Assembly: GCA_019244185.1 (NCBI GenBank)
Contig: JAFATB010000006.1
Location: 553,614 to 617,613 of the forward strand
Source: Acidobacteriota bacterium
GTDB lineage: Bacteria > Acidobacteriota > Thermoanaerobaculia > Gp7-AA8
Length of the DNA stretch: 64,000 nt
Reading direction: 5' to 3'
In this document: positions 15,716 to 38,213 of the stretch, in pieces
How the letters are laid out: every line of letters starts with the position of its first letter
Position numbering within the stretch: position 1 is the first letter of the stretch
Translations under genes and position numbers: made by a program
Notes under the pieces: model-generated
Told to the model about the DNA's origin: nothing
Seen by the model: the letters and a program-made list of their open reading frames with translations, nothing else
The model's database searches: none

Positions 15716-15767
15716 GTGCGCATTTTATGGCGTTACAGCATGACCGTCAAACGGCGCTTCCGCGCGA

Positions 15768-16172: not shown

Positions 16173-16293
16173 GAGCGCGTTCCGCGGTCGAGCGGGACGA
16201 TCAAGATAGGGTCGCCGGTGCAAACGCAATATCGGGAGAGATGCGCAGCGGTCGGGTGAAACCCCTACACGAGCTGGAGCGTGCGATGCGCCG

Positions 16294-24377: not shown

Positions 24378-25859
24378 TCAGCTGTTCGGGGTGAGGATAT
24401 ACGTCACCAGTCCGCCGTGGCGCCGCGTGGGATCGGCGACGAGGTGGAACTCCTTCCCGCTGACGTGTTTGATGCCGATGCTCAGATGGGTACAGGTGCC
24501 GTTGATCTTGAGCTCATTTCCGTTGCCGGGAGTGAGTTTGCAGTCGATCTTGTCCCACAGGCTGTAGTAGTCGGCTTTGGCCATCGGGTCGTAATACTTC
24601 TTGAGAAGCTTGACCAGCACCGCGGCGTGGCTCGTAAAGACGAAGAACCCGTCTTTCTTGATGCCGTTGTATTCGATATTGCTCTTGATCTGCGGATCGA
24701 TGAACGTAGGGACTCTCACAATCGCCGACTGGTTCTGCGGGAGTACATAATCCGTCTCGGCGTCCACGCCGTACTTCTGGAGAATCGTGGCGAACGCATT
24801 CGCGAGCGTAATGCAGCTTCCGTAGCGGTCCAGTGAATTCGGGTTCTCCATGAAATCCTCGGCCTGGTCGTCGGTGCCGATGAACGCCGTCCCATTGACC
24901 AGCGCGGACGCAGAGTACCGGAAGCCATAGTTCGTGAATTCTTTGAACAGCCTGTCGACGAACAGCCGCAGGCTGGCCTTGTCGTTTACATGGACGGCCG
25001 TGGATCCGTAATAGAGCTCGCCCTTCTTGCCTTTGGTCACGCTACGCGTGATGTACCCCATCGGATCGCGCTGCTGCCATTGAATATTGCTCCAGCCAAG
25101 GCGCAGGTGCGTCAATCGCGTATCGAGCGTGGTGAGGTCGTTTTCGAGCGCGTTGTACTGCCCTTCGTTGTACGCGGCCCGATCGAGATTGTTGAATCGC
25201 TGCTGGATCTGGACCAATACGGTCGGCGGCCGCATCCAGGAACGGTTCGTCGCAAAGTCATTGAGCGTATTCGCGATTTTCGTGCGCAGATTGTCGCGCA
25301 GCGTATTGATGCGCGTCTCCTGTTCGTTGTAGCCCTGCATGAAGCCGAGCAGCCAATTGAAGCGGTTGTATGTGAGCGGCTGGGCCGTACCCGGCGGGAG
25401 CCGCCGCGGCGGCGCGGCATCCACGCGCTGCACGGCCTGAATCGCCATCCGCTCCGCCTCCGCTTCCAGCATCGCATCCTGCACGACCGCCACGCCGCTG
25501 CCGCTTACATTCCGCACGCGTCCCGTCCGCTGCTGCACGACGTGCGCGAGCTCGTGCGCGAGCGTATGCCGCCCATGCGGCGTGGCCGGATCGTACTGGC
25601 CGGCCGCGAAATGAATGTGCGAGCCGTGCGTGAACGCCTGCGCGCGGATCGCCTGCGCCACCGCGCTCGACGGATGGACGCGCACGTGATCGAACCGCTG
25701 CCCGAACGCCGCTTCCATCCGCTGCCGTACATCGGCCGCCAATGGCTGCCCACCCTGCACCGGCAACCGCGCCGCCTCCTGCGGCGAGAGCCGCGCCGGA
25801 ACCTGTGCCCCGCGAGGAAACCGCCCTTGAATCACCGAGCCGTTCATCGGATGAGCCAT
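24378..25859 (-). CDS. DUF4157 (eCIS-core) protein with transglutaminase-like C-terminus
   Basis: 493 residues. The N-terminal DUF4157 domain (about 35-125) contains the zinc-binding HELAH at 102-106 within HTLAHELAHVVQQRTG. Such domains head many toxins and injection-system effectors. A helical middle section follows (about 160-260). The C-terminal region has SCITLANAFATILQKYGVDA with Cys349, then SHAAVLV with His411, and VADPT with Asp476. This resembles the Cys-His-Asp layout of transglutaminase-like thiol enzymes. Base composition looks less GC-rich than its neighbours and it lies beside a tRNA gene, both hints of transfer. No injection-system genes are in the window. Effector function is inference. 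Confidence 0.78.
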   Translation of the reverse strand: MAHPMNGSVIQGRFPRGAQVPARLSPQEAARLPVQGGQPLAADVRQRMEAAFGQRFDHVRVHPSSAVAQAIRAQAFTHGSHIHFAAGQYDPATPHGRHTLAHELAHVVQQRTGRVRNVSGSGVAVVQDAMLEAEAERMAIQAVQRVDAAPPRRLPPGTAQPLTYNRFNWLLGFMQGYNEQETRINTLRDNLRTKIANTLNDFATNRSWMRPPTVLVQIQQRFNNLDRAAYNEGQYNALENDLTTLDTRLTHLRLGWSNIQWQQRDPMGYITRSVTKGKKGELYYGSTAVHVNDKASLRLFVDRLFKEFTNYGFRYSASALVNGTAFIGTDDQAEDFMENPNSLDRYGSCITLANAFATILQKYGVDAETDYVLPQNQSAIVRVPTFIDPQIKSNIEYNGIKKDGFFVFTSHAAVLVKLLKKYYDPMAKADYYSLWDKIDCKLTPGNGNELKINGTCTHLSIGIKHVSGKEFHLVADPTRRHGGLVTYILTPNS

Positions 25860-25925
25860 GATCCCTCGTCTCCGTCGTTCAGCGTCTCGGGAAGTAAGGA
25901 GATTTTACGACAGGGGGAGTTTTGG

Positions 25926-25998
25926 CTGTGGCGGGAGGGCTCGAACCTCCGACCACCGGATTAACAATCCGGCGCTCTACCAACTGAGCTACACCACA
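25926..25998 (-). tRNA. tRNA-Asn (anticodon GTT)
   Basis: Full cloverleaf on the minus strand: acceptor TGTGGTG paired with CGCCACA, D-arm GTAGCTCAGTTGGTAGAGC, anticodon stem CCGGA/TCCGG with loop TTGTTAA (anticodon GTT), T-arm GGAGGTTCGAGCCCTCC. Discriminator G is followed by an encoded CCA at 25923-25925. Confidence 0.98.
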
Positions 25999-26032
25999 GT
26001 ACGTGCGCGGCGGGAGGGGGATGGTGGCGCGG

Positions 26033-26740
26033 TCAGCGGGGGGTTGTCAAGGCGGTGCGGATGGCGCGCAGGCGCTCCAGCGCTTGCGGCATGTCGGCGT
26101 GGATGCAGATCGTGTCGAAGGCGATCGGGATGCGGGTGCCGTCGCGGGCGATGACGGCGCGTTCGTTCGCGAGCATTACGGCCTGCGCGGCGGCTTCTTC
26201 GATCGTGAGCGTGGAGCCGGTGATGCTGCGCGGGACAAGCGAGCCGTCGGGCTCGTAGCGGCGGTCGGCGAAGGCCTCGCGGATGACGCGCGTGCCGGCG
26301 GCTTGGGCGGCGGCGGCCATCTGCGAGCGATCGGGCGCGACGATGGCGATGGTGGGATCGACGGCACACATTGCGTCGACGATCGTGTCCGCGCGCGTGC
26401 GGTCTTTGTGCGCGTCGTTGTACAGCGCGCCGTGCGGCTTCACGTGCTCCACGCGCGCGAACGCGCGCAGCGCGGAGATCTGCGCGATGAGCGACGCGCG
26501 CAGCGCGTCGGCGTCGAGATCGAGCGAGCGGCGGCCGAAGTGCTCGCGATCGGGATAGGACGGATGTGCGCCGAACGCGACGCCGTAGCGCGCGGCGAAG
26601 GCCGCGGCCTCGCGCATCGAGGTCTCGTCGCCGACGTGACCGCCGCACGCGACGTTCGCGGACGTGATCAGCGGCCAGATCCCGTCTTCGTCCGGCGAAC
26701 CTTCGCCGAGGTCGGCGCTGAGATCGAGATCGAGAGTCAC
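26033..26740 (-). CDS. pxpA: 5-oxoprolinase subunit A (LamB/YcsF family)
   Basis: 235 residues. Conserved blocks: LDLSADLGEG near the start, ITSANVACGGHVGD, GAHPSYPDREHFGRR, VEHVKPHGALYN, EAFADRRYEPDGSLVPR and FDTICIHAD at the end. These are the signature of PxpA, which works with PxpB and PxpC in ATP-dependent cleavage of 5-oxoproline. The start is GTG at 26740, fixed by a GTGA overlap with the upstream transporter stop. PxpB and PxpC are not present in this window, so they must be elsewhere or absent. Confidence 0.92.
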   Translation of the reverse strand: MTLDLDLSADLGEGSPDEDGIWPLITSANVACGGHVGDETSMREAAAFAARYGVAFGAHPSYPDREHFGRRSLDLDADALRASLIAQISALRAFARVEHVKPHGALYNDAHKDRTRADTIVDAMCAVDPTIAIVAPDRSQMAAAAQAAGTRVIREAFADRRYEPDGSLVPRSITGSTLTIEEAAAQAVMLANERAVIARDGTRIPIAFDTICIHADMPQALERLRAIRTALTTPR

Positions 26741-27936
26741 AGCTCGGTTCCTTTCGTTTCGGGTAGGAGCCAGATGAGGACCCCGCCGAGCGCGAAGAAC
26801 GCGGCGTCGGCGGCGAGGGAGAAGCGGAAGCCGTACGTCGCCGCCGCGGCGCCGATCGCGTACGGCGCGGCCGCGGACGCGAGGCGGCCGCCGTTGTAGC
26901 AGAAGCCCTGCGCGCTCGCGCGGATGCGCGTCGGAAAGAGCTCGGCGAGCATCGCGCCGAACAGCGAGAAATAGCCGTGCGCGAAGTAGCCTACCAGCGG
27001 GCCGATGAGCAGGAGCGTCAGCTTCGAGCGCGCGCCGAATGCGAACAGCGGCACCACCGCGGTCGCGGCGATCATGAAGAAGGTGAACGCGGGACGGCGT
27101 CCGATGCGGTCGGCAATCCAGCCGAAGCTCACATAGCCGAAGAACGCTCCGATCTGCAGCACGATCAGCCACGCGGCCGACTTCGTCAGCGTCAGCCCCG
27201 CGCCGCCCTGCGCCACAGGCGTCGCCAGAAACGCGGGCAGCCACGACGTCACGCCCCAGAATGCGACGAGCACGCTGCTCGCGAGGAGCGTCGCCAGCAC
27301 GACGCGCGCGCGGAATGCGGGGCCGAACAGCTCGAGCCAGCGCGACGGCTCGCGCGCGCGCCACACCTCCGGCTCTTCGACGTTGCGGCGAATCGCGAAC
27401 GCGAGCACCGCCGGCAGCGCGCCGATGAGAAACAGCACGCGCCAGCCGAAGCGCTCGAGGACGAGCGCGGAAATGCCCGCGGCGAAGAGCGCGCCGATCG
27501 CCCACCCCGCCTGCATGATCCCCATCGCCTTCGCGCGATGTTGCGCAGGCCACGTCTCCGCGACGAGTACCGAGCCGCAGGACCACTCGCCGCCCATGCC
27601 GAGGCCGACCAGCACGCGCCACGCGATGAGCTGCCAGAGCGCGGACGACGTCGCGAGGCCCGCGGTCGCGGCGGAGTACAGCAGGATGCTGAACGTCATC
27701 GCGCGCACGCGGCCGATGCGATCGGCGAGACGTCCGAAGCCGATGCCGCCGATCGCGCTCGCGATGAGCGCCACCGACGTGAGGCCGCCCATCGTCGACT
27801 TGGCGAGGCCGAACTCCTGCTGGATCGGCACGACGGCGAAGGTGAAGAGGAGGAAGTCCATCGCGTCGAGCATCCAGCCGAGCTGCGCGGCGAACAATGC
27901 GCGCCACGCGCGGCGGTCGACGTCGATGAAGGACAT
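26737..27936 (-). CDS. MFS transporter, aromatic-acid/metabolite:H+ symporter type
   Basis: 399 residues with about 12 membrane segments. Family signature in the loop between helices 2 and 3: GFGRLADRIGRVRAM, with a second copy SFGWIADRIGRRPAF in the C-terminal half. The acidic helix 1 motif QLGWMLDAMDFLLF is typical of the AAHS/MHS transporters. Start at ATG 27936 (MSFIDVDRRAW). Its stop overlaps pxpA (GTGA), so it may import 5-oxoproline or a related acid. Substrate is inference from context. Confidence 0.85.
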   Translation of the reverse strand: MSFIDVDRRAWRALFAAQLGWMLDAMDFLLFTFAVVPIQQEFGLAKSTMGGLTSVALIASAIGGIGFGRLADRIGRVRAMTFSILLYSAATAGLATSSALWQLIAWRVLVGLGMGGEWSCGSVLVAETWPAQHRAKAMGIMQAGWAIGALFAAGISALVLERFGWRVLFLIGALPAVLAFAIRRNVEEPEVWRAREPSRWLELFGPAFRARVVLATLLASSVLVAFWGVTSWLPAFLATPVAQGGAGLTLTKSAAWLIVLQIGAFFGYVSFGWIADRIGRRPAFTFFMIAATAVVPLFAFGARSKLTLLLIGPLVGYFAHGYFSLFGAMLAELFPTRIRASAQGFCYNGGRLASAAAPYAIGAAAATYGFRFSLAADAAFFALGGVLIWLLPETKGTEL

Positions 27937-27984
27937 CGCGGCGGAGTGTACAACGCCGCCGCGATGCCGGTTCAACGCGAGAGA

Positions 27985-28019
27985 TTCATCAGGACGAAAG
28001 GGCCGCGATCATGGCAACC
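27985..28019 (+). repeat. Inverted repeat R1 (outer end of peptide cassette 1)
   Basis: About 35 bp containing GGGCCGCGATCATGGCAACC. It matches the reverse complement of R2 at 28365-28398 (shared TCATCAGGA, then GCCGCGATCA-GGCAACC). R1 and R2 enclose the first peptide gene. R3 and R4 share the same core. Confidence 0.7.
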
Positions 28020-28138
28020 GCTCACAAGCGCCGGATTCAGGGACTGCACCGGCGGCATCTCAATTTGCATTCGAAGTCGGTTTAAAGCCGGAACATCGAC
28101 AGCGGACCGCCGTGCGATCCGCCGAACAGCGCCGAATC

Positions 28139-28261
28139 TTACGCGCCGCCGCAGAGAACCGCGACAGCGATCAGGGCGCCGACCGCAAAACCATTCCAGA
28201 AGTCCGTGGCGGCTTCGCTGATGGGGGCGACGACGTTTTCCATTTCTTCGATCATGAGCAT
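28139..28261 (-). CDS. Candidate precursor peptide A1 (40 residues)
   Basis: 40-residue ORF with a strong ribosome site (AAGGAG, 9 nt before ATG 28261). The N-terminal part reads MLMIEEMENVVAP; the rest has an acidic and aromatic stretch (EAATDFWNGF), then a hydrophobic tail with a GxxxG motif (GFAVG), ending LCGGA. It is about 63 to 75 percent like peptide A2 at 30244 by eye, with substitutions spread as expected for a translated gene. It shares the leader with peptides B1 and B2. Last gene of the proposed peptide operon. Confidence 0.85.
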   Translation of the reverse strand: MLMIEEMENVVAPISEAATDFWNGFAVGALIAVAVLCGGA

Positions 28262-28364
28262 GTGAGTGATCTCCTTTTCCATGTAGTGGGCGATTCGATT
28301 GGGGGTGTAACTGCCGGGGACATGACAACCGGACGCCGAGGGGCTACTGCATCGTGGCGCTGAG

Positions 28365-28398
28365 GGTTGCCGTGATCGCGGCTCTCTCCTCCTGATGA
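28365..28398 (-). repeat. Inverted repeat R2 (inner end of peptide cassette 1)
   Basis: Reverse-complement partner of R1: read on the minus strand it contains TCATCAGGAGGAGAGAGCCG and continues CGATCACGGCAACC. It lies just after the permease stop codon. Confidence 0.7.
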
Positions 28399-28402
28399 CT
28401 CC

Positions 28403-29629
28403 TTATTCGTAACGAAGACATTCGATCGGATCGAGCATGGAGGCTTTCCACGCCGGATACAGACCGAAAAGAATTCCGATGGCCGCGGGGACGAGGAACG
28501 CGCTGCTGACGGCCCACAACGGAATGGGACTGAACGAGCCGAAGAATCCGTGGCTGATCGCGCCGCCGGCCGCATAGCCGAGCGCAACGCCGGCCGCTCC
28601 GCCGAGGAGCGATAAGAGCGACGCTTCAATGAGGAACTGCACCAGGATGTCGCGCGGCTTGGCGCCGACGGATTTCCGGATGCCGATCTCACGCGTGCGC
28701 TCGGTGACCGTGACGAGCATGATGTTCATGATGCCGACGCCGCCGACGAGCAGCGCGATCGACACCATGCCGCCGGCCACGGCGCCGATGAAGCGCGTAA
28801 TGCCGGAGACGATGGAGACGAACTGCCGCTGGCTGAAGACGCGGAAGCCTTCCTGCTCTTTCGGTTTGAGGCCTTTGACGCGGCGTAATGCGGCGGTGAC
28901 GAGCTCCGCACCGTCATCCGCGCTGACCTTCGAGTCGATGCGCACCTGAAAGAACAGCTGATGGCGCTGCTCTTCGGTGAGCATCGGCAGGCCGGTGCGC
29001 AGCGGGATGAGGATCATGCTGTCGGGATCGGCGCCGAGGGTTGCGCCGCGTTCCTCCAGCACGCCGATGATCTCGAGTCCGAGAGACGGCGTCTGAATGA
29101 TCTTGCCGATGGGATTGCCTTTGATGGCGAGCTTCTCGAGCACCTTCGGGCCGACGATGACCACTTTGCTGCCGAGGCGGATCTCCGCCGGGACGAAATT
29201 GCGTCCGGTCTTGACGTTGATGTCGTTGAGCTCGAGATAGGTCTCGTCCGACATCAGCATGTTGACGGAGGTGGTGTGGCCGTTGGCCTTGAGATCGGTG
29301 CTCGTCAATGCGAGGGGTGTGACCTGGGTGACCTGGCGCACGAGGCGTTGCACGGCCTTCATGTCGTCTGCGGTCAGGTCGCGATTGCGGACTTTCCCAT
29401 ATTCCTCGAGCGGAACGTCGCCCGGCAGGAGAGGGCGGACGAGCAGCGTCTGGCTGCCGGCGCGCTCGATTTCCTGCAGGATGCTGCGCTCCATTCCCTG
29501 GACGAGGCTGACCACGGCGATGACGCTGGTCACGCCGATGACGATGCCCAGGGAGGTGAGGATCGAGCGCATTTTGTTCGCTTGGAGCGATTTGAGCGCC
29601 GCACGCAATGGCTCGATGAGGCCGAACAT
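28403..29629 (-). CDS. MacB/FtsX-type ABC transporter permease
   Basis: 408 residues from ATG 29629 (preceded by AAAGGA). N-terminal membrane segment (SILTSLGIVIGVTSVIAVVSL), a large periplasmic MacB_PCD domain (about 45-270), and three C-terminal FtsX helices (around GAVAGGMVSIALLVGGVGI, LIEASLLSLLGGAAGVALGY and WAVSSAFLVPAAIGILFG) with the family loop VTERTREIGIRKSVGAKP. Ends DPIECLRYE, typical of MacB. There is no ATP-binding domain, and no ATPase gene lies in the operon. With the HlyD-type adaptor it would form a MacAB-like exporter, presumably of the peptides. Confidence 0.9.
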   Translation of the reverse strand: MFGLIEPLRAALKSLQANKMRSILTSLGIVIGVTSVIAVVSLVQGMERSILQEIERAGSQTLLVRPLLPGDVPLEEYGKVRNRDLTADDMKAVQRLVRQVTQVTPLALTSTDLKANGHTTSVNMLMSDETYLELNDINVKTGRNFVPAEIRLGSKVVIVGPKVLEKLAIKGNPIGKIIQTPSLGLEIIGVLEERGATLGADPDSMILIPLRTGLPMLTEEQRHQLFFQVRIDSKVSADDGAELVTAALRRVKGLKPKEQEGFRVFSQRQFVSIVSGITRFIGAVAGGMVSIALLVGGVGIMNIMLVTVTERTREIGIRKSVGAKPRDILVQFLIEASLLSLLGGAAGVALGYAAGGAISHGFFGSFSPIPLWAVSSAFLVPAAIGILFGLYPAWKASMLDPIECLRYE

Positions 29630-29678
29630 GGGATGAGGTCCTTTCTGTAAATTAATTGAGCGTTTGTGAACCCGAGGC

Positions 29679-29712
29679 CCCATTACGGCCTTCCGGAGAA
29701 GGCCGTAATGGG
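29679..29712 (-). other. Perfect 15-bp hairpin between peptide genes and permease
   Basis: Arms 29679-29693 and 29698-29712 (CCCATTACGGCCTTC and its exact complement) with a CGGA loop. No T tract follows on the minus strand, so it is not a classical terminator. Its place between the peptide genes and the permease gene fits an mRNA processing or stabilising structure that sets the peptide-to-transporter ratio. Confidence 0.7.
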
Positions 29713-29736
29713 ATGGCCGGAACTGCATGGCGATCC

Positions 29737-29805
29737 GCAGAAAAGAGCCGCGACCACGGCGATCAGCAACCCGTCAGCTTCACACCCACAGCAAAACTGA
29801 CGACG
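29737..29805 (+). repeat. Inverted repeat R3 (outer end of peptide cassette 2)
   Basis: About 69 bp: GCAGAAAAGAGCCGCGACCA, then GGCGATC, CACACCCACAGCAAAACTG and ACGACG. It aligns over its whole length, with one small gap, to the reverse complement of R4 (30434-30497). Its first part carries the core also found in R1 and R2. Confidence 0.7.
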
Positions 29806-29837
29806 ACTCGCCAAGGGACTCTTTCAGCCGAAGCCGA

Positions 29838-29960
29838 TTACGACGAGAGAGCCGCGATGATGATGATCGTCGCCGCGCCGGCGCCAGCACCCGCGAGCCA
29901 CGTTCCGACGCTGGGGGCAACCACTTCTTCCATCTCTTCGATCATGAGCACGTTGTTCAT
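29838..29960 (-). CDS. Candidate precursor peptide B1 (40 residues)
   Basis: 40 residues from ATG 29960, with AAGGAAAG upstream. Starts MNNVLMIEEMEEVVAP, then SVGTWLAGAGAGAAT and a run of isoleucines ending AALSS. Differs from B2 at one residue, with several synonymous changes, so it is a recent duplicate under coding constraint. The Gly-rich GAGAG and hydrophobic tail resemble membrane-active peptides. The leader is shared with A1 and A2 while the C-terminal part is unrelated. Confidence 0.85.
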   Translation of the reverse strand: MNNVLMIEEMEEVVAPSVGTWLAGAGAGAATIIIIAALSS

Positions 29961-30033
29961 TGGAGTCTTTCCTTTTCTCTGAAGTTGGTGAAACGTTGTT
30001 GTTTAGGGACCGGGTCTGTTGGTGGACGACGGA

Positions 30034-30156
30034 CTACGAGGAGAGCGCCGCGATGATGATGATCGTCGCCGCGCCGGCGCCAGCGCCCGCGAGCCACGTT
30101 CCGACGCTGGGGGCAACCACTTCTTCCATCTCTTCGATCATGAGCATGTTGTTCAT
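30034..30156 (-). CDS. Candidate precursor peptide B2 (40 residues)
   Basis: 40 residues from ATG 30156 to a TAG at 30034. Identical to B1 except Met for Val at position 4; third-codon changes and different stop codons separate the two genes. Leader LMIEEMEEVVAP, then SVGTWLAGAGAGAAT and an isoleucine-rich end. An AAGGAAGA purine stretch precedes the start. Confidence 0.85.
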   Translation of the reverse strand: MNNMLMIEEMEEVVAPSVGTWLAGAGAGAATIIIIAALSS

Positions 30157-30243
30157 TGGAGTCTTCCTTTTCTTTCTTTTAGTTAGTTTGTGAAAGGGCC
30201 CGAAATGAATCAATGCCCGTACTGCGTGTGAAGCAGAGGCGTC

Positions 30244-30366
30244 TTATGCGCCGCCGCAGAGGATCGCGCCCGCGATGAGCGCGCCGATGGCGAAGCCCTG
30301 CCAGAAGTCGTTCGCGGCCTCGCTGATCGGGGCAACGATGGTTTCCATCTCTTCGATCATGACCAT
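30244..30366 (-). CDS. Candidate precursor peptide A2 (40 residues)
   Basis: 40 residues from ATG 30366, with AAAGGAG 9 nt upstream. Leader MVMIEEMETIVAP, then ISEAANDFWQGFAIGALIAG and the tail AILCGGA. It is the paralog of A1; most changes are conservative (T/N, N/Q, V/I). A GxxxG motif (GFAIG) and the terminal CGGA are kept. It is the first peptide gene after the HlyD-type adaptor. Confidence 0.85.
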   Translation of the reverse strand: MVMIEEMETIVAPISEAANDFWQGFAIGALIAGAILCGGA

Positions 30367-30433
30367 GTGCGTAATCTCCTTTCTATAAGATGATGTTGCC
30401 GTACTGCCAAAACCGGGGTCCCGTACAACCTAG

Positions 30434-30497
30434 CGCCGCCAGCTTTACTGCGGGTGTGAGCGCTGCGATTGCCTTGGTCGCGGCTCTTTACTGCCGA
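30434..30497 (-). repeat. Inverted repeat R4 (inner end of peptide cassette 2)
   Basis: Reverse-complement partner of R3; on the minus strand it reads GCAGTAAAGAGCCGCGACCA, then GGCAATCGCAGC and CTCACACCCGCAGTAAAGCT. It lies between the adaptor gene and peptide A2, so R3 and R4 enclose peptides B1, B2 and A2. Confidence 0.7.
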
Positions 30498-30525
30498 CCG
30501 GACCACGATTCGATTGATGCCTGAT

Positions 30526-31788
30526 TCAGTTGGCGGAGTGCCGCTCCTGCTCGCGCTGTTTCCGCTCCTCCTGCGAGTCGGACAGGTGATGCAGCGTGAC
30601 GTCCGCCTTGTCCTTGAGATCGCGCAGCTTGCGCAGAGGGCCTGTAATGACCTTGTCGCCTTGTGCGAGACCGTGTTGGACTTCGTAATACTGGCTGTCG
30701 GCGATTCCGAGCGTGACCGTCTTCTCGTCGACCTTGCCGTCTTTGTTCGCGACCATGACCACGGAGCGCGTCTGCGGGACGAACAGACCCTGCTTGCGCG
30801 CGTCGTCCATCGAACCTTCGCGCTCGAGCACCGACTGCAGCGGCACGCGCACGGCATTGTTCGCGTCCGCGGTCAGAATCACCGCCCGCGCGCTCATACC
30901 GGGGCGCAGCAACGCCATGTCGCGGTCGGTGACCGTGAGGAACACCTTGACCTTGTACATGTTCGCGTCCTGACCGGTCGCTTCGGCCGCGGAGGCGATC
31001 TCGCTGATCGTGCCGCGGAAAATGCGGTCCGGCAGCGGCTCGACGCTGACCTGCGCCGGCTGACCGACTTTGAGACGCACCACTTCGTTCTCGTTGACCT
31101 TGATCTCGGCGCACGTGTCGGTCATGTCCGAGACGACCATGAGCACCGCGCCGGGGAGGTTGCTCGTGCCCGGAATGGCCATTTCGCCTTTTTCCGCGCG
31201 CAGTGAGGTCACGCGGCCCACAATGGGCGAGCGGATCTCGGTTTTCGTGAGACCGTCGCGCATGGCCGCGACGTTGGCCTCGTTCTGTGCGACGTTCGCT
31301 CGCGCCGACTGTGCGGTGAACTCCGCGCTCTCCATGCCGATCTTCGCCTGGCGGTCCGCCTCGACGGAGACGAGCCCTTGATGGAACAGCGCGTCGGTGC
31401 GCTGGTACGTTTCACCCGCGAGCCGCCGGGCCGCGTCGAGACGGGCCGCGTCTTTGCGAGCCGACTCGAGCAGCGCCTCCGCTTGCGAGAGCTGCTGCCG
31501 CAGACGCTCCGGATCGATGCGTACGAGCAGCTGTCCCGCCTGCACGTACTCGCCGTCCTTGACCAGGAGCTCCGTGATCTCGCCGGCCACGTTGGTGCCG
31601 ATGTTCACGCGGGTGCGGGCCTGGATCTCGCCGCTGGCCTGGATGGTCTCGCGCACTTCTCCGCGGTCGACCACGTCCCAGTTGAGGGCGTCGGCTTCGC
31701 TGCCGGTCTTTCCGAACGTCAGTCCGAGGCTGAGCATGACCGCGCAGCCGAGGACGATCGCCATCTGAATCTTCGTTCGCTTGCGCAT
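30526..31788 (-). CDS. HlyD/MacA-type periplasmic adaptor protein
   Basis: 420 residues from ATG 31788; a TTG at 31797 that overlaps the YIP1 stop is also possible. One N-terminal membrane anchor (IQMAIVLGCAVMLSLGLTFG), then the biotinyl-lipoyl half-motif GEIQARTRVNIGTNVAGEI, a coiled-coil hairpin (about 95-200) and the second half-motif KTEIRSPIVGRVTSL. Beta-barrel and membrane-proximal domains complete the fold. The charged tail is KQREQERHSAN. It is the partner expected for the MacB-type permease encoded after the peptide genes. Confidence 0.92.
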   Translation of the reverse strand: MRKRTKIQMAIVLGCAVMLSLGLTFGKTGSEADALNWDVVDRGEVRETIQASGEIQARTRVNIGTNVAGEITELLVKDGEYVQAGQLLVRIDPERLRQQLSQAEALLESARKDAARLDAARRLAGETYQRTDALFHQGLVSVEADRQAKIGMESAEFTAQSARANVAQNEANVAAMRDGLTKTEIRSPIVGRVTSLRAEKGEMAIPGTSNLPGAVLMVVSDMTDTCAEIKVNENEVVRLKVGQPAQVSVEPLPDRIFRGTISEIASAAEATGQDANMYKVKVFLTVTDRDMALLRPGMSARAVILTADANNAVRVPLQSVLEREGSMDDARKQGLFVPQTRSVVMVANKDGKVDEKTVTLGIADSQYYEVQHGLAQGDKVITGPLRKLRDLKDKADVTLHHLSDSQEERKQREQERHSAN

Positions 31789-31793
31789 TGGAA

Positions 31794-32561
31794 TCAAACC
31801 CAGAAGTAAATTCGCCAGCCGAGGCTCACCACGAGGGCGAGAGCGGTACAGAGAGCGGCTTCTTTGTTCTTGAGGCGCATGACGTGGCGCGTGGCCAGGA
31901 AGGTCATGACGAAGAAGCCGATGATGAACGGATCGACCTGTGCGAGGAGCGCATAGAGCTTCGGGTTTTCAGGCCGCAGGTAGAAGGCCAGGCCCGACGG
32001 CGCGAGGCGGTCCGGAATCTGGCTGCCGACGTCGCGTAATGCGCTGACGACGCCGATCATGAGGAAGTACGGGACCAGCATGAGGCCCGGCACCGCGGAC
32101 GCGCTGACGGCCTGCAGGAACTTCGGCTTGCGCTCGGCTTTCGTGCCCAGGCCGACCAGCCAGAACATGAGGCCGAAGAACAGCGTCCCGAAGAGATTGC
32201 GGAACGTGACCGCCATGAGCGTCATCGGCATCATGAAGCGCCGCGTGATCTCGATGACGCTTTCGATCTGCGCCGCGGGCATGGAGCCGTTCTTCTCGAG
32301 CACCGGACGGTACAGAGCGTCGGCGTCGACCTTGAGGCTCCAGGGCACGACCCACAGCCACGCGGCGATGATGACCAGCAGGAGCGCTCCACCCCAGCGC
32401 GGCGTGTCGGCGAGCCGCGTGAAGAGCTGCGTCGGCTGCGTGAAGACGTCGACGGCCTGCTCGAGGAGGGTGGGGGCTTTCAGCCGCTTCTTCGTACGCG
32501 GCTGCGGCTCGACCGGCATCGCGTCGGCGCCAACAACAGCGGCAATGGCATTTTCGTGCAT
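31794..32561 (-). CDS. YIP1-family membrane protein in the peptide operon
   Basis: 255 residues. Soluble N-terminus, then LLEQAVDVFTQPTQLFTRLA (the usual opening of bacterial YIP1-like proteins) and about five membrane helices ending GWRIYFWV. GGAGAA precedes the ATG at 32561. Function unknown; in the operon it could act in immunity or in assembly of the export complex. That role is inferred from position only. Confidence 0.8.
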   Translation of the reverse strand: MHENAIAAVVGADAMPVEPQPRTKKRLKAPTLLEQAVDVFTQPTQLFTRLADTPRWGGALLLVIIAAWLWVVPWSLKVDADALYRPVLEKNGSMPAAQIESVIEITRRFMMPMTLMAVTFRNLFGTLFFGLMFWLVGLGTKAERKPKFLQAVSASAVPGLMLVPYFLMIGVVSALRDVGSQIPDRLAPSGLAFYLRPENPKLYALLAQVDPFIIGFFVMTFLATRHVMRLKNKEAALCTALALVVSLGWRIYFWV

Positions 32562-32595
32562 GGGATTCTCCGATTGAATGTCGTGGTGATAGGGA

Positions 32596-33024
32596 TTACA
32601 GAGTCACTTCTTCGAGCACCGCGATGCGGGAGAGGCTGACCGGCAGGGCCACAATGGCGGCGATCCCGGCCACGATCCAGCTCACAATGACGGTGCTCAT
32701 CGCGAGCGAGCTGACGAACATGAAGAACGATTCCGGCGAGGTGAACGGGCTCTGTCCGATGACGGCCGGATTCATGAGCACCGCTCCGAGTCCGATCAGC
32801 GAGAACATCGTCCCCGCAATCACCCCCGCCAGGGCCGCCGCCTTCACGCCTTCCCTCGGCGCGAAGTTGCCGGCCACGAAACCGATTCCGACGGCGAGCA
32901 GCAGCGACAGCATGGCCCGCAGCGAGCCGCTGGCCAGGACGCCCATCCGCATCAGCGGAATCTGCGCGGCCACGCCCGTGAGACCGACTGCCACTCCCAA
33001 TCCGACGACGTGTTTGACGTTCAT
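32596..33024 (-). CDS. Four-helix membrane protein, candidate immunity protein
   Basis: 142 residues from ATG 33024, which overlaps the TAA of the M50-ThiF gene (TAATG). Four hydrophobic segments (VVGLGVAVGLTGVAAQ, LSLLLAVGIGFVAGNF, LAGVIAGTMFSLIGLGAVLM, VIVSWIVAGIAAIVALPVSL). No recognised family. Small multi-helix proteins next to bacteriocin genes are often immunity factors, which is a guess here. Confidence 0.8.
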   Translation of the reverse strand: MNVKHVVGLGVAVGLTGVAAQIPLMRMGVLASGSLRAMLSLLLAVGIGFVAGNFAPREGVKAAALAGVIAGTMFSLIGLGAVLMNPAVIGQSPFTSPESFFMFVSSLAMSTVIVSWIVAGIAAIVALPVSLSRIAVLEEVTL

Positions 33025-35375
33025 TACGCGCTCACCCTTTCCTGCACGGTCCCGCAGACGGTGCACTGTTCATTGCGGGGATTGTCTTGATAGTGGAACT
33101 CGAGGCTCGGGACGTTGATGTAGAGCAGGCGTCCCGCGGTCTTGACGTCGCCGAGCTTGGCGAGGTGCAGGACCACTTCGTTCGACAGCAGTCCGGCCGT
33201 CGCGGAGACCATCGGTCCGAGCGTGCCGAACGCGCCGCGGTCGAATTTCGGGAACTCCAGCGGATTGCATTCGAGACAGGCGGACTGTCCCGGGATCACC
33301 GTGGCGCCGACGACCGTGCCCTGCGCGAGGAAGCCGCCGCCCGAGAACGGGATGCCCTTCCGGATGCAGGCTTCATTGATGAGCGTAATGGCGTTGACGG
33401 GATTGTCGAGGGCGCGCACGACGAAGGTGCTGCCTTCAATGGCCTCGCTGATCTCTTCGACGTTCTGTACGAATTTGTGCGTCTTGCGGATGCGCAGCTG
33501 CGGATTGAATTCGAGCAGGCGCTCGGCGGCGACGTCGACCTTGTAGCGGCCGATGTCGGCGGGCGTGAAGAAGAGCTGGCGATTGAGGTTGGTGAGCTCG
33601 ATCTTGTCGGCGTCGACGAGATGCAGTTCGCCGATGCCGCAGGAGGCGAGGTTCCACGCCACGTGCGTGCCCAGTCCGCCGACGCCGAGGATCGTGACCG
33701 ACGCATTGCGCAGGCGGTCGAGCGCTTCCAGCTCGCTGCCGCGGACGTTCGCGTTCATGCTGAACCAGCCCAGCTGCCGCGAGTAGCGGAGATTCTCCTC
33801 GCTGAGCTCCCACTCCGACGTATAGCGGAGATAGCGGTGATGCCACAGGCGCTGGATGACGTTCTCGAATTCCGGCAGCCACGCGGCCTGCTCTTTGAGC
33901 CGCGGCAGCGTGTACGAGCCATCGCGCAGCAGCGGGATGAATTCGAAGAGCGACGCCGGCGCCTGCACCGTCAGAGAATCGGGCGCGGTCCAGCCGAAGA
34001 TGAATTCCTGGTTGTCCGTACTGATCACGGTGACGTGCGGATTGAGACGGATGGGACGCTCGGGATCGAGCGTGTAGGTGACGAATGCGGCCGGGGCTTG
34101 CTGACGCGGGCGGGGCGCCGCAACCGCGGGCGCCGCGGCGGCGGCCTGTTTGCGCGCCTTGCGCAGTTGCAGTGCGAAGCGGCCGGCGAACGTCAGCGCG
34201 AGGAGGACCACGGCGCCGGCGACGGCCCAGATGCTGGCACGCGACGAGACGCCGAACCAGCTCGCGATGCGGAACAGGAAGCCGAGACCGCCCGCCCACA
34301 TGGCCGTACCGAACCACATCGATGAGATGCCGAAGCAGAACAGGAGCGCGCGGGTCATCGGCGTCAGCGACAGAACCGCGTTGTAGCGAAGACGCGCGCC
34401 CTGTACGGGACGGCGCAGCATCGCGGAGGAGAGCGTCACGCGCACCCACTCGATGCTGCGGTCGCGGAGATTGGTCATCGGCAGCGCATTGGAGAGCGCC
34501 CAATAGCCGTCCAGACGGACGAACGGCAGCACATTGAGAAGAATCGTGGAGAGATTTGCGGCCGCGAAGATGATCAGCAGGTCCGCATTATGGCGGCCCT
34601 TCAATGCCAGCCACAGGAACATCGTCCCGCTGGTCACGAGGGCCTGGACATAAACGCCGGCAGAGGAGATGACCACGCGTTGCCAGCGATTGCGCAATTG
34701 CCACGAGTCTGTAATGTCCGCGTAGGCGGCCGGCTGCAGGTAATACAGCATGACGCCGAGACTGCGCACCGGCGCGCCATAATGGTGGCAGGCCGCCGCA
34801 TGTCCCAATTCATGAATGAAGGTGACGAGGAAAAACAGGCCGACGATCGTCGCGATCTGCACCGCCGTGAAATTCACGGTGCGGAAGACGTGGCCGATCT
34901 CGCCGCCGTGCGAAATCCCAACACCGAGCGCAATGACGGAGATGAGAATTCCGAGCGCGACGACCGAGCGCTTCATCATGACGCGCGTGAAGGGCGACAG
35001 CCACTCCAATAACGGGTCGGGTTTTCCGAGGTGAATGCGCAGCTGGCCGAAACGGCCCCATTCGAAGCGGCGTTGCGCGGCAGGAGTTTCTTCCGCCTGC
35101 TGGACGACCTGCAGCTTCACAGGCTCGGCGCTCATGCAGATCAACTTCGCTGCCTGGAGGCGGCGAAGGAGCTCTTCGCCCATGGACGCCTCGATTCCGA
35201 GGAGCGCTGCGATCTCCTGTTCGGCGACCTGGCCGTCAATGCGCATCAGCCAGTCGAATTCGCGCAGACCGAGCCGCAGGTAACGGCCGGTTTCGTGATT
35301 GAGCACGAGTCTCGAATCAGGCTCCGGCTGCGGGAGATCCATTTGCAGCTTCGGATTTCGATAGGGGTAGGCCAT
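33024..35375 (-). CDS. Fused M50 metalloprotease and ThiF-type E1 with RRE-like domains
   Basis: 783 residues from ATG 35375 (GAGGA 11 nt upstream); an ATG at 35393 has no ribosome site. Order: winged-helix, PqqD/RRE-like segment (about 20-85; GRYLRLGLREFDWL); membrane site-2-protease (about 130-400) with HELGH at 188-192 and NVLPFVRLDG at 281-290; an Ala/Pro linker (410-430); a second RRE-like segment (about 438-520; IRLNPHVTVIS, LLRDGSYTLPRL); and a ThiF/MoeB E1 domain (about 535-783) with GVGGLG at 564-569, LVDADKIELTNLNRQ and a Cys4 zinc site (C700, C703, C771, C774). First gene of the peptide operon. Likely binds the shared leader, activates or modifies the peptides, and cleaves them at the membrane. 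The exact chemistry is unknown. Confidence 0.88.
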   Translation of the reverse strand: MAYPYRNPKLQMDLPQPEPDSRLVLNHETGRYLRLGLREFDWLMRIDGQVAEQEIAALLGIEASMGEELLRRLQAAKLICMSAEPVKLQVVQQAEETPAAQRRFEWGRFGQLRIHLGKPDPLLEWLSPFTRVMMKRSVVALGILISVIALGVGISHGGEIGHVFRTVNFTAVQIATIVGLFFLVTFIHELGHAAACHHYGAPVRSLGVMLYYLQPAAYADITDSWQLRNRWQRVVISSAGVYVQALVTSGTMFLWLALKGRHNADLLIIFAAANLSTILLNVLPFVRLDGYWALSNALPMTNLRDRSIEWVRVTLSSAMLRRPVQGARLRYNAVLSLTPMTRALLFCFGISSMWFGTAMWAGGLGFLFRIASWFGVSSRASIWAVAGAVVLLALTFAGRFALQLRKARKQAAAAAPAVAAPRPRQQAPAAFVTYTLDPERPIRLNPHVTVISTDNQEFIFGWTAPDSLTVQAPASLFEFIPLLRDGSYTLPRLKEQAAWLPEFENVIQRLWHHRYLRYTSEWELSEENLRYSRQLGWFSMNANVRGSELEALDRLRNASVTILGVGGLGTHVAWNLASCGIGELHLVDADKIELTNLNRQLFFTPADIGRYKVDVAAERLLEFNPQLRIRKTHKFVQNVEEISEAIEGSTFVVRALDNPVNAITLINEACIRKGIPFSGGGFLAQGTVVGATVIPGQSACLECNPLEFPKFDRGAFGTLGPMVSATAGLLSNEVVLHLAKLGDVKTAGRLLYINVPSLEFHYQDNPRNEQCTVCGTVQERVSA

Positions 35376-35699
35376 AGACACACGAATCCTCATCGGGAAA
35401 ACACTGCGTTTTTGTTGAAAGGCGGAACCGATTGCCTTGCCAGAGCTTCTGCGTCAGTCGTTGCTGTCGAGGAGTTGGCTATTCGTTGCGTTGTATGGCC
35501 GAACTAACTTATTAGTACCTTTTCCAAATTCCAGCGATCCGGCGTTCCGGCGAAAAGATTTTCGGCAGGTATGGCGCTATGTAGTTAAGGTTGCCGCTGG
35601 TTATGGCTGAGCTTTAAAGACGGCAGGCGGGAATGACAGGAGTGTGCTTGCGCTTTTCATACGGCAAACGTCCAACATTTCTCCAGGAGCCCAAGCACT
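35376..35699. other. Intergenic region upstream of the peptide operon
   Basis: 324 bp between two divergent genes with no coding frame I would support. An AT-rich block near 35500-35540 (including CTAACTTATTAG) is the likely promoter region for the minus-strand peptide operon. No clear -35/-10 or sigma-54 elements could be assigned. Confidence 0.4.
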
Positions 35700-35903
35700 A
35701 TGAATTCGCAGCGAAAAGCTCGGCTGTTCATCCTTCTCGGTATGTTCGCGCTCGCGTTCGCCATGACGGTTTCCACGCGTTTCCACCTCGATTTCGCCGC
35801 CGGCTTCGGCTATGTGCTCGGCACCGGCTTTCTCGGCCTCGGCGTCGTGAAACTGCGGCGCGAACCGACGGCTCAGCTGCCGGAACCGAACGCGCGAAAC
35901 TGA
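35700..35903 (+). CDS. Small two-helix membrane protein, unknown
   Basis: 67 residues from ATG 35700, preceded by CAGGAG at a 10-nt spacing. Two hydrophobic segments (LFILLGMFALAFAMTVS and FAAGFGYVLGTGFLGLGVV) and a polar C-terminus. Convergent with holA. Not recognised; may or may not belong to the divergent peptide locus. Confidence 0.65.
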   Translation: MNSQRKARLFILLGMFALAFAMTVSTRFHLDFAAGFGYVLGTGFLGLGVVKLRREPTAQLPEPNARN

Positions 35904-35955
35904 CGGGCGCGGCGCAGCCGGACCGCGCGTCCTTGAGCGGCTTCAGCGGTGGCGC

Positions 35956-37341
35956 TTAGCGGCTCTGCCGCACGCGCTGCAATAGGAACGTCTCCATCGC
36001 CAGGTCGGCGGGCAGACCGCCCGATTTGCGCTGGATGTCGAGGTCGGCAACGTCGGAGAGTGCGCGGAAGAGCTCGCCCTCGGTGAAGTGACGCGCCGCT
36101 TCCCACTTCTTGTGAAGGGGGAACGGATGCGGCCGCTGACGGACGAGTCCGTTCATCTTCAGATAGTCGCCGACGCGGTCGGCGAGCGCATCCTTGAAGC
36201 GGTTGTACTGCACGGGCGCGCGGAGGTTGACGTTGTGCGCACGCGCGAACGAGTGGATGCCGATCATCTGGCGGATCTCGTCGGCGAAGGCGAAGAGGAA
36301 ACGGCCGTAGTGCATCTCGACCGGCATCTTCGCGTCCTCACGACGCCCCTGGGCGACGAGATCGCGCAGCTTCGCGATGGCCTCGAGCATCTTCCCTTCG
36401 GTGAAGAGCGAGCCGAGCTCGTAGCGGGCTCCGCCTTCGATACTGGCGACCTCGCGCTCGACGAGCTCGGCGGTGACGCGGCCGCCGCTGCCGACGAGCG
36501 TGATGAGGCGCTCAGCTTCGCTGACTGCGCCGCGCAGCTCCGGCACGTCCTTCGAGAACTTGTCGGCGAGCATGCGCTCGAAGCCGAGTCGCTGGCGCAG
36601 CCGCGCGAGCGCGTTCGCGTCGAACTTCACGTCCGCTTCCGCGGCCGCGGCCTGAATCGCGCCGTCGAGCGCGGCGACGAAGCCGTCGCGCGTGAGATCG
36701 GCGACCACGACCGCGCCGTGCTTATCGATCAGCTCGATCGTCGCCGAGTCGCGCGGCACCTCGCCGGTGCGCATGAGCAGCAGCGCGCCGGGCGCACCGC
36801 CGCGCGCGATCGCTTCCATGAGCAGCGCCGCGTCGTCTTCGCCGCGTCCCGCCTTCTTGCCCGTGACGCGGCAGAACGCGAGCATGTCCGCCAGCGGGCC
36901 TTCGAGCGACACGCCAAGCGCGTCGGCGATCTGGCGATCGGTCATGTCGAGATCGACGCCGGCGAGCCCGAGGACGTGCAGCAGTTTCGCGGACGACGAC
37001 GCGCGCTTGCGATCGGTCTTCGCGCCCTTCCAGTCGGCCACCGCCTTGTCGTACAGCGACGCGATCTCTTTCGCGGAGACGAACGCGTTCACCTCGGAGA
37101 CGATGAGCAGGCGGGCACCGCCGAAGAGCGAGCCGGTGCGATACGAGTCGAGGATCGAGGCCAGCTCGGTCCCCGGCTCGTACGTTTCGACGGCGACGGC
37201 AGGGTTCTTCGCCACGATCGCATCGCGGATCGCGTGGAACGCCTGTTCGGAGAGAAATTCAGATGAGCCGCCGACCAGGAGGACGCGCGGCGTGTTGCCT
37301 TTGTCGATTTGCTGAAGAACCGCGGGAAGAGGCTTCGGCAC
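35956..37341 (-). CDS. holA: DNA polymerase III delta subunit
   Basis: 461 residues, longer than the usual 330-350. N-terminal PRVLLVGGSSEFLSEQAFHAI and SYRTGSLFGGARLLIVSEVN match the clamp-loader delta subunit that opens the beta clamp. The C-terminal helical collar domain is present (YELGSLFTEGKMLEAIAKLR, KMNGLVRQRPHPFPLHKKW, DLDIQRKSGGLPADLAMETF). The extra length is an insert around residues 105-210. Last gene of the rplU-to-holA cluster, 15 bp after the DksA-like gene. Confidence 0.88.
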   Translation of the reverse strand: MPKPLPAVLQQIDKGNTPRVLLVGGSSEFLSEQAFHAIRDAIVAKNPAVAVETYEPGTELASILDSYRTGSLFGGARLLIVSEVNAFVSAKEIASLYDKAVADWKGAKTDRKRASSSAKLLHVLGLAGVDLDMTDRQIADALGVSLEGPLADMLAFCRVTGKKAGRGEDDAALLMEAIARGGAPGALLLMRTGEVPRDSATIELIDKHGAVVVADLTRDGFVAALDGAIQAAAAEADVKFDANALARLRQRLGFERMLADKFSKDVPELRGAVSEAERLITLVGSGGRVTAELVEREVASIEGGARYELGSLFTEGKMLEAIAKLRDLVAQGRREDAKMPVEMHYGRFLFAFADEIRQMIGIHSFARAHNVNLRAPVQYNRFKDALADRVGDYLKMNGLVRQRPHPFPLHKKWEAARHFTEGELFRALSDVADLDIQRKSGGLPADLAMETFLLQRVRQSR

Positions 37342-37356
37342 GGCCTCTCCTCCCGA

Positions 37357-37728
37357 CTACGAGAGCAGACCCTTTTCCTGCAGTTCCTGGCAGTCGATGC
37401 AGAACGGCGTCCAGGGAACGGCCTGCAGGCGCTTCTCGCCGATCTCGTTGCCGCAGTTCGTGCAGACGCCGTACGAGCCTTCGCGCATGCGATTGAAGGC
37501 CTCGTCGATGAGCATGAGCAGATTGCGCTCGCCGTCGGAGAGGGAGAAGTTCAGCTCCTTCGAGTAGGCGCTGGCGGCCTTGTCGGCGAGGTCCTGGATG
37601 CCGTCGTCAGGCAGAGCGTTGCCGGCGGCTTTGTCGCGTTCGTAGGAGTCGAGCAGCTCGCGCTGCTTGCTGCGCAGCGCGTCTTCGTGCTGCTGGTACG
37701 GGTTCGCTTTTGCTTTCGTCTTGGCCAT
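37357..37728 (-). CDS. DksA/TraR-family zinc-finger protein
   Basis: 123 residues. An N-terminal coiled coil (QQHEDALRSKQRELLDSYER) and a C4 zinc finger (CTNCGNEIGEKRLQAVPWTP then CIDC). The coiled-coil tip and finger match DksA-like proteins that bind the RNA polymerase secondary channel and work with ppGpp. It lies 14 bp downstream of rlmH. Confidence 0.88.
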   Translation of the reverse strand: MAKTKAKANPYQQHEDALRSKQRELLDSYERDKAAGNALPDDGIQDLADKAASAYSKELNFSLSDGERNLLMLIDEAFNRMREGSYGVCTNCGNEIGEKRLQAVPWTPFCIDCQELQEKGLLS

Positions 37729-37742
37729 TCGAGTTCATCCAC

Positions 37743-38213
37743 CTATTTGTGGTACGGAATGTTGCGCATCAACGTGCACGCCCGATAAATCTGTTCCAGC
37801 AGAATGACTCGAACGAACTGATGCGGGAGCGTCATCGCCGAGAGGCTGAGGAGCTTGTCGGCGCGATGGCGGACCGTGTCGTCGAAGCCGACGTCGCCGC
37901 CGACGACGAAATGCACGCCGTGCGGGCTGTCGATGGTCAGCCTCTCGAGCCACTTTGCGAACTTCAAAGAATCGAGCGTTTGTCCTCGCTCGTCGAGGAC
38001 CACCGTGTACCCGCGATCGGGGATCGCGGCCAGCAGGCGCGCGGATTGAGCGCGCATGATAGCCACATCACTTTGAGCTTGTCTACCGCGCTCGGGCGCC
38101 ACTTCGAGCACCTCGATCGGAAAGAAATGTCTGATCCGATTGAGGTAACGCTCCGCCGCCGCGGCGAGCTCGGCGTCGGCATGGGAACCGCCCGTGATGA
38201 GACGTAATTTCAT
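37743..38213 (-). CDS. rlmH: 23S rRNA pseudouridine-1915 N3-methyltransferase
   Basis: 156 residues, the family length. SPOUT fold with the S-adenosylmethionine knot region HFVVGGDVGFDD and the C-terminal LSLSAMTLPHQFVRVILLEQ followed by IYRACTLMRNIPYHK, diagnostic of RlmH. Start is ATG 38213; the frame is open further upstream through the sigma-54 activator gene but that part is a shadow. It follows the activator by 2 bp. Confidence 0.95.
   Translation of the reverse strand: MKLRLITGGSHADAELAAAAERYLNRIRHFFPIEVLEVAPERGRQAQSDVAIMRAQSARLLAAIPDRGYTVVLDERGQTLDSLKFAKWLERLTIDSPHGVHFVVGGDVGFDDTVRHRADKLLSLSAMTLPHQFVRVILLEQIYRACTLMRNIPYHK

Follow-up and report, generated by a model that had tools for sequence, protein, structure and literature searches.

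An acidobacterial operon with an M50–E1 fusion enzyme and leader-bearing peptides: a candidate pathway for modified peptide pairs

What would a bacterium make with a site-2-type protease and a ubiquitin-E1-type adenylating domain on one polypeptide, encoded in one operon with four very short genes? This question is raised by a 64,000-nucleotide stretch of contig JAFATB010000006.1 (assembly GCA_019244185.1, Acidobacteriota bacterium; positions 553,614 to 617,613 of the forward strand), referred to below as the window. A preliminary description of the window had reported a minus-strand operon with an M50–ThiF fusion, two membrane proteins, an HlyD-type adaptor, short peptides and a permease, and all of these were found where it had put them (Table 1). 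All parts of the operon sit on the minus strand and the fusion gene comes first in transcription order, followed by the genes for a 142-amino-acid protein, a Yip1 protein, a MacA-like adaptor, the precursors beta1, alpha1 and alpha2, a MacB-type permease and the precursor beta2. A pathway for a ribosomally synthesized and post-translationally modified peptide (RiPP), as had been proposed, is by far the best reading of this set, given the short precursors, two predicted RiPP recognition elements (RREs), an MccB-like adenylyltransferase, an M50 protease and transporter parts. We consider it rather probable that the operon makes leader-bearing peptide pairs and that the M50–E1 fusion binds their leader, activates their C-terminus and cuts the leader off.

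The fusion enzyme and its peptide partners

Sixty-three database proteins matched the fusion at E ≤ 1e-10. The window's own protein and 43 others scored at least 553 bits, after which the next match dropped to 117 bits; 42 of these 44 fusion-type proteins carry annotations for both domains, and the remaining two are partial. The closest named relative, P0003 from Thermoanaerobaculia, is 70% identical. In an alignment of 40 rows (the window's protein plus 39 of the 43 others, without P0032, P0037, P0043 and P0044), the M50 residues H188, E189, H192, D289, G290, Y291 and W292 and the E1 residues G564, G566, G567, G569, R599, Q600, K612 and D657 were invariant, and the four zinc-type cysteines of the E1 domain (C700, C703, C771 and C774) were at least 90% conserved. 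The spacing Arg599–13–Lys612–45–Asp657 is the same as that of Arg167, Lys180 and Asp225 of EnfB, which the available portion of PMC12250964 describes as needed for ATP/Mg. Because the ATP-site residues are invariant and spaced as in EnfB, the E1 domain is expected, from sequence comparison, to be catalytic.

Structure models place a predicted RRE in front of each catalytic part, and both are predicted to serve as leader-binding modules. Most of RRE1 is covered by a match to daptide_HExxH, and residues 17-401 of the fusion scored 228.1 bits on the NF041824 daptide protease model (curated cut-off 300); the LiaK/YydH model scored 43 bits on the fusion. The best structural match of the E1 half was MccB, with the entry that holds bound modified MccA on top.

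The four leader peptides of the preliminary description, given there as 40 residues each, are present, and an AGGA/GGAG-type Shine-Dalgarno sequence precedes each of them; that account needs amending in that they are of two dissimilar types, which we named alpha and beta by eye, and in that beta2 has 47 amino acids if an earlier ATG at 28282 is used. They form two pairs (28139 with 30244, and 29838 with 30034): alpha1 and alpha2 share 95% DNA identity over 140 nucleotides, and beta2 shares 82% over 141 nucleotides with 30242-30382. The leader MIEEMExVVAP is common to all four, its conserved stretch ends in Ala-Pro, double glycine is absent before the core, and the peptides end in Ala or Ser.

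With 15 peptides as input, a profile search yielded 152 proteins, of which the 120 listed form the set analysed here. These precursors are mostly 34-47 amino acids long, with cores of 20-28 residues when counted from the AP (or YG/YS) boundary. A GxxxG motif was present in 119 of the 120 cores versus 50.6 ± 4.6 in shuffles, and in all 32 less redundant cores versus 11.9 (0 of 1000 shuffles was as high); it usually begins at core residue 7, 8 or 11 (102 of 120). The last residue is Cys in 50 peptides, Ser in 45, Ala in 21 (all CGGA), Asp in 3 (all CD) and Thr in 1, and only two cores have a Cys outside their last five residues. Lys is absent from 118 of the cores. Asp and Glu are absent from 13, including the alpha core of the window, and in such cores the C-terminal carboxylate is therefore the only core carboxylate available to the E1. 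Family members come from both fusion-type sources and sources of the split type described below; at least one precursor cluster occurs on 1000 contigs named after Streptococcus, and S. pneumoniae is included by name (P0112 and P0115). The streptococcal member P0115 bears a class IIb name in UniRef, and NCBI already names a Paenibacillus dendrobii member, P0165, a 'daptide-type RiPP'.

Precursor and enzyme genes occur together. A profile built from the 120 peptides was run over 14,637 short open reading frames (ORFs) of 125 sources, and at E<1e-6 it matched nine of nine independent M50+E1 loci (the window, L004, L005, L016, L027, L032, L034, L066 and L114) and, apart from second copies of these loci, nothing else, E1-only and M50-only loci included; this test is partly circular, since some locus peptides belong to the 120 profile members. 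The expectation that leader-bearing ORFs accompany the conserved fusion was thus borne out in all three fusion loci with longer flanks (the window, L004 and L005), and such ORFs also lie in all six split loci. Sources without a profile match include short-flank copies of the window's fusion (L001, L003 and L084) and L100, the second contig of the genome that holds L005. Two dissimilar precursors, typed by eye, were present in eight of the nine loci. For 8 of the 44 fusion clusters the longest contig is exactly as long as that of a precursor cluster, in a comparison into which 21 of the 120 precursor values were entered, picked by eye and without a chance control.

Table 1. Features of the operon and its flanking repeats in the window (positions in the 64,000-nucleotide stretch)
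Feature	Position	Strand	Basis
RRE–M50–RRE–E1 fusion enzyme, 783 aa	33024..35375	-	PF00899 172 bits, PF02163 36.5 bits, both above cut-off
Predicted RRE1, residues 1-90, in front of protease	35106..35375	-	model: beta-strands then three helices; label by shape
M50 site-2-type protease part, residues 121-411	34143..35015	-	HELGH 188-192, LDGYW 288-292
Predicted RRE2, residues 430-522, preceding E1 domain	33810..34088	-	model; superposes on N-terminal part of MccB
E1/ThiF adenylyltransferase domain, residues 523-780	33036..33809	-	conserved residues in alignment
142-aa multi-pass membrane protein	32596..33024	-	hydropathy peaks
Yip1-domain membrane protein, YknW-like	31794..32561	-	PF04893 29.0 bits, cut-off 28.6
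MacA/HlyD-type periplasmic adaptor	30526..31788	-	TIGR01730 172.8 bits, cut-off 94.9
Precursor beta1, 40 aa, core ISEAANDFWQGFAIGALIAGAILCGGA	30244..30366	-	profile E 2.5e-17; daptide_Mpa2 E 0.008
Precursor alpha1, 40 aa, core SVGTWLAGAGAGAATIIIIAALSS	30034..30156	-	profile E 7.4e-14 (frame holding the peptide); daptide_123 E 0.078
Precursor alpha2, 40 aa, core identical to alpha1	29838..29960	-	profile E 3.3e-13
MacB-type ABC permease without ATPase domain	28403..29629	-	PF12704, PF02687
Precursor beta2, 40 aa, core ISEAATDFWNGFAVGALIAVAVLCGGA	28139..28261	-	profile E 1.5e-18 (47-aa form)
Inverted-repeat arm, three-precursor cassette	30467..30500		partner 29731..29764
Inverted-repeat arm, last precursor	28365..28401		partner 27983..28019

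Fused and split relatives

Related loci were taken from a scan of one genome per species, in which relatives were found by alignment and the best 80 of 204 were kept, two of them fusions; a scan of genome contigs with the single protein gave no matches. The fused gene was present in two further acidobacterial genomes (L004 and L005). By inspection L004 has the same gene order, with the precursors preceding the fusion and one extra membrane ORF of 54 amino acids. The contig of L005 stops within the fusion, and the rear end lies on L100, together with membrane ORFs of 146 and 63 amino acids and a Yip1-like ORF of 250 amino acids. The fusion is rare: at E≤1e-30 the query genome alone matched among 100 genomes, and at E≤1e-60 the query genomes alone matched, as 1 of 396 in the phylum, 1 of 200 in the class of genome G450 and 1 of 147 in that of G449.

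In a split version, an M50 gene is followed by an E1 gene. This arrangement was found in Lactococcus chungangensis (L016), a Saccharibacteria bin (L027), Anaerococcus (L032), Lachnoclostridium (L034) and Shuttleworthella (L066), and a sixth locus, L114, lies in a genome of the same family as that of L016 and has an interrupted M50 frame (5514-8518). Because the proteins of L027 are 72-78% identical to those of L016, this locus appears to be transferred or mis-binned. The E1 of all six split loci has a hydrophobic peak past residue 320, where a low-confidence model of the L016 protein shows helices. Besides M50 and E1, L066 (8973-18438) holds a YcaO gene adjoining the E1 gene, another M50 gene, a gene for an aminotransferase of the daptide type (334 bits, cut-off 450) and, by inspection, one for a protein resembling short-chain dehydrogenases/reductases; its precursors end in Cys or Thr, the second and third in Thr. 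We read L066 as two neighbouring branches, one based on E1 and one of the daptide kind, but its E1 may instead serve the YcaO protein.

With starting genomes counted, M50 matches at E≤1e-20 were found in 5 of 299 Lachnospiraceae, 3 of 216 Streptococcaceae and 6 of 130 Anaerococcus relatives, and L114 was the one further M50+E1 locus among those opened in context. No E1 match adjoins the M50 gene in L101-L105 or L115-L120, where a 253-amino-acid protein of L101 gave a weak match (1.1e-5); L101 and L103 are daptide-like by inspection, and L102 and L104 have M50 without E1 within a short stretch. In L105 (4634-7389), L115, L116-L119 and L120 the M50 gene stands beside a gene for a 378-456-amino-acid protein that looks like a radical S-adenosylmethionine (SAM) enzyme, and short Cys-rich peptides occur, without E1, in L105 and L116-L119. 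On plasmids, the E1 matches listed (30 of 83) and the M50 matches (6 of 6) have no record in common; three plasmid matches were opened, of which H1 and H5 have an E1 without an adjoining M50 and H34 is an annotated daptide cluster. Viral contigs gave one weak E1 match only.

In trees with 12 fusions each, the fusion M50s and the fusion E1s both formed one clade (support 100/100). A single clade of fused and split members was not rejected for E1 (approximately unbiased test, p 0.19) or for M50 (p 0.088). Because the trees show no such clade, a common function of the fused and split versions rests on gene order and precursors. The pair may be ancient, with a single fusion event, or an E1 may have been recruited more than once to this leader/protease system.

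Candidate chemistry and its rivals

How would such an enzyme act on its peptides? The RRE modules would bind the IEEMExVVAP leader, and the E1 domain would use ATP to adenylate the C-terminal carboxylate of the precursor. A nucleophile of the same peptide would then displace AMP to give a ring or another cap, and the M50 part would cut the leader after Ala-Pro at the membrane. The MacA/MacB-type pair, working with an ATPase whose gene lies elsewhere, would export the product, and two dissimilar helices would pair in the membrane through their GxxxG motifs. RiPP enzymes of the E1 type, as described in the available portions of PMC12250964 and PMC12150305, adenylate a carboxylate, and the nucleophile sets the product, which may be a phosphoramidate, bicycle, thiolactone, imide or indolylamide. 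As the form of ring closure we prefer a head-to-tail reaction by the amine freed on leader cleavage, because protease and activating enzyme are on one chain and many cores have no thiol near the C-terminus except in the last residue. Such closure would fit all cores and would give a reason to fuse, or to anchor together, protease and E1. A more speculative reading, which we hold to be less likely than not, is that the fusion is a membrane-bound cyclase, in which E1-driven RiPP ring closure of the 24-27-residue cores yields a pair of circular, terminus-free GxxxG helices, the enzyme being fused in Acidobacteriota and split in Bacillota.

Several observations weigh against this proposal. Head-to-tail closure does not explain the conservation of Cys, Ser or Thr at the C-terminus, and no single nucleophile accounts for all C-termini. 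The split members fall outside the fusion clade in both trees, and the Lachnospiraceae E1s of L034 and L066 are without the zinc cysteines. Because a YcaO gene adjoins it, the L066 E1 could be a docking partner. Neither M50 nor E1 is present in the 17-kb stretch that carries the precursor P0151 of Streptococcus cuniculipharyngis (L127); no M50 match was found in that genome at 1e-10, the ABC (ATP-binding cassette) ATPase of the stretch is in pieces by inspection, and the locus is apparently a remnant. As to export, a motif scan of the window and of L004 found no ABC ATPase, and on L100 the Yip1-like gene is followed by neither an adaptor nor a permease gene.

Capping of the C-terminus without a ring, with AMP left on as by MccB or with an amide from an outside amine, is rather unlikely; it would rid the hydrophobic helix of its negative end. 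It would agree with MccB as the best structural match (the modified-MccA-bound entry leading), with the ability of EnfB to amidate its C-terminus (available portion of PMC12250964), with the loss of the same carboxylate in daptides and with the hydrophobic cores, among which 2 Lys were found in the 115 counted. However, the target of MccB is a C-terminal Asn, whereas this family ends in C, S, A, D or T, and such capping leaves the strict C-terminal Cys/Ser/Thr unexplained.

It is unlikely that a small C-terminal (thio)lactone is formed, by attack of a late Cys or Ser on the activated carboxylate, the kind of closure known from GRC peptides and autoinducer thiolactones. A Cys near the end is present in 102 of the 120 cores, GrcB forms a Glu–Cys thiolactone according to the accessible part of PMC12250964, and a CGGA end would yield a four-residue ring. 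Yet the only late Cys is the last residue in 40 of the 120 and the second last in 24, which makes a ring impossible or strained, 18 cores have no Cys near the end and terminate in Ser, and a side-chain partner is rare, since 4 of 115 cores have an Asp or a Glu beyond core residue 10. Because of the 40 cores that end in their only late Cys and the 18 without one near the end, a small thiolactone is not the common answer.

We likewise regard it as improbable that the peptides serve in signalling or envelope stress rather than antagonism and act on the producer's own membrane, with the Yip1, MacA and MacB proteins in a protective role. The model for this is the YknWXYZ system, which protects Bacillus subtilis from a toxic peptide. 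A YknW-like Yip1 protein, a MacA-like adaptor and a permease are indeed in one operon here, and full export is in doubt because no ATPase was found. Against this, an ABC ATPase and a permease, both named by inspection, come directly next in most of the split loci (L016, L027, L032 and L034, four out of six); in L066 these lie further on, and in L114 neither is directly next.

That the E1 is a leader-docking scaffold only, and that the peptides are merely trimmed before they leave the cell, without modification, to form a two-peptide bacteriocin, is very unlikely: ThiF-like partners of YcaO enzymes do act as docking domains (available portion of PMC12150305) and a YcaO gene stands beside the E1 gene of L066, but none is among the window's operon genes, none was recognized by inspection in L004, and invariance of the ATP-site residues over 40 rows is not required of a mere scaffold.

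Known systems, transporter genes and flanking repeats

The preliminary description held that the operon matches no class familiar to its author. The combination is indeed undescribed as far as our searches show, and it is one of two known kinds, a daptide-like leader and protease and a ThiF-like E1, for both of which RiPP relatives exist (PMC12250964, PMC12150305). Among the papers listed in our literature searches, none was recognized as a description of an M50–ThiF RiPP; clusters of the published enterofaecin network may include the split version.

Daptides, in the available portion of PMC10036551, have an RRE fused to an intramembrane site-2 protease, the leader ELExMEAP and 2.3 precursors per cluster on average; their C-terminus is decarboxylated, and they are described there as synergistic hemolysins. 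The present system may resemble them in its predicted RRE–site-2 protease and its leader (IEEMExVVAP), and it has several hydrophobic precursors and a C-terminal end that is likely the site of change. Unlike in daptides, MpaB, the MpaC dehydrogenase, the MpaD aminotransferase and the MpaM methyltransferase are not among the operon genes of the window, the E1 domain is fused to the protease, and scores stay below NCBI equivalog cut-offs; a C-terminal Thr, invariant in daptides, ends 1 of the 120 listed precursors. Three of the four window peptides were scanned with daptide precursor models and gave best E values of 0.002, 0.008 and 0.078, all below cut-off. In our profile search the Streptomyces daptide precursors came next, those of S. 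virginiae with E values between 9e-5 and 0.028, so that a distant kinship of the two precursor families is possible; the fusion M50s group, with weak support (91/50), near MpaP of S. virginiae. The operon as a daptide operon was rejected, for lack of the C-terminal Thr and of MpaB, MpaC, MpaD and MpaM.

ThiF-like adenylyltransferase RiPPs (microcin C with MccB, pantocin A with PaaA, GRC, enterofaecin and IndF) share with this system an RRE fused to an MccB-type adenylyltransferase with an intact ATP site and a precursor gene beside the enzyme gene, as in all nine M50+E1 loci. Here, in contrast, the enzyme is fused to or paired with a membrane M50 protease, the leader is of the AP type and the core has GxxxG. 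The available portions of PMC12250964 and PMC12150305 do not describe an M50 in such pathways, and the protease of the IndF pathway is an M16. The short peptide of microcin C is adenylated at a terminal Asn, whereas an Asn-terminated precursor is absent from the window. EpeP/YydH of epipeptides and TglG of pearlins are likewise M50 proteases acting in a RiPP pathway (PMC10885120, in the portion available), but neither a radical SAM epimerase nor a tRNA-dependent ligase was recognized in the operon.

Class IIb bacteriocins consist of two unlike peptides encoded side by side, each with GxxxG and a double-glycine leader, and are unmodified. The present peptides are similar in that two different ones occur together (8 of 9 loci) with GxxxG in nearly all (119 of 120), and differ in that neither a double-glycine leader nor a C39 peptidase-transporter is found in the operon and in that the peptides are likely modified. 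A pair of GxxxG helices that lack a free carboxylate would fit the role of a membrane agent with two components.

The MacAB-like export of the preliminary description holds for the MacA-like adaptor and the MacB-type permease; the permease is without an ATPase domain, and the motif scan found no ABC ATPase in the window. The Yip1 protein, adaptor and permease recall YknWXYZ/MacAB, from which the operon and the window differ in that no counterpart of the ATPase YknY was found; the Yip1 protein scored 32 bits on NF052650 YknW_fam (cut-off 110). In L004, too, a MacB-type permease (14964-16187, like 28403-29629 of the window) and a MacA-like adaptor occur without an ABC ATPase nearby. The start of the 142-amino-acid protein overlaps the stop of the fusion gene (TAATG). 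Searches of Pfam and NCBIfam (E≤1) and of PHROG (E≤0.01) found no match for this protein, and ORFs of 153 amino acids in L004 and 146 amino acids in L100 occupy the same position.

Inverted repeats of 34-37 nucleotides flank the three-precursor cassette and the last precursor; the arms of both pairs are 85-86% complementary, with RNA duplex energies of -58.7 and -52.5 kcal/mol. With as many as 3 mismatches tolerated, a 21-mer common to the four arms has no further site in the 5.3-Mb genome (reversed control 0). The repeats may serve as stems for processing or mark the borders of a cassette that was duplicated. In an Rfam search over 25000-38000 the sole credible match was a tRNA at 25926-25998, and no family explained the repeats. 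Repeats as general brackets of precursors were dropped as an idea: they are clear in the window, and in L004, L005, L016, L032 and L034 nothing went well beyond five shuffles each.

The M50–E1 operon links two RiPP worlds, daptide-type leader and protease on the one hand and ubiquitin-E1-type carboxylate activation on the other, and the precursor family offers a searchable signature for further loci. If the enzyme cuts one end of the peptide and activates the other, it would be a single-chain maturation machine for hydrophobic peptides. If true, this would provide a practical route to membrane peptides without free termini and a case on which ideas about the closing of circular or capped bacteriocins could be tested.

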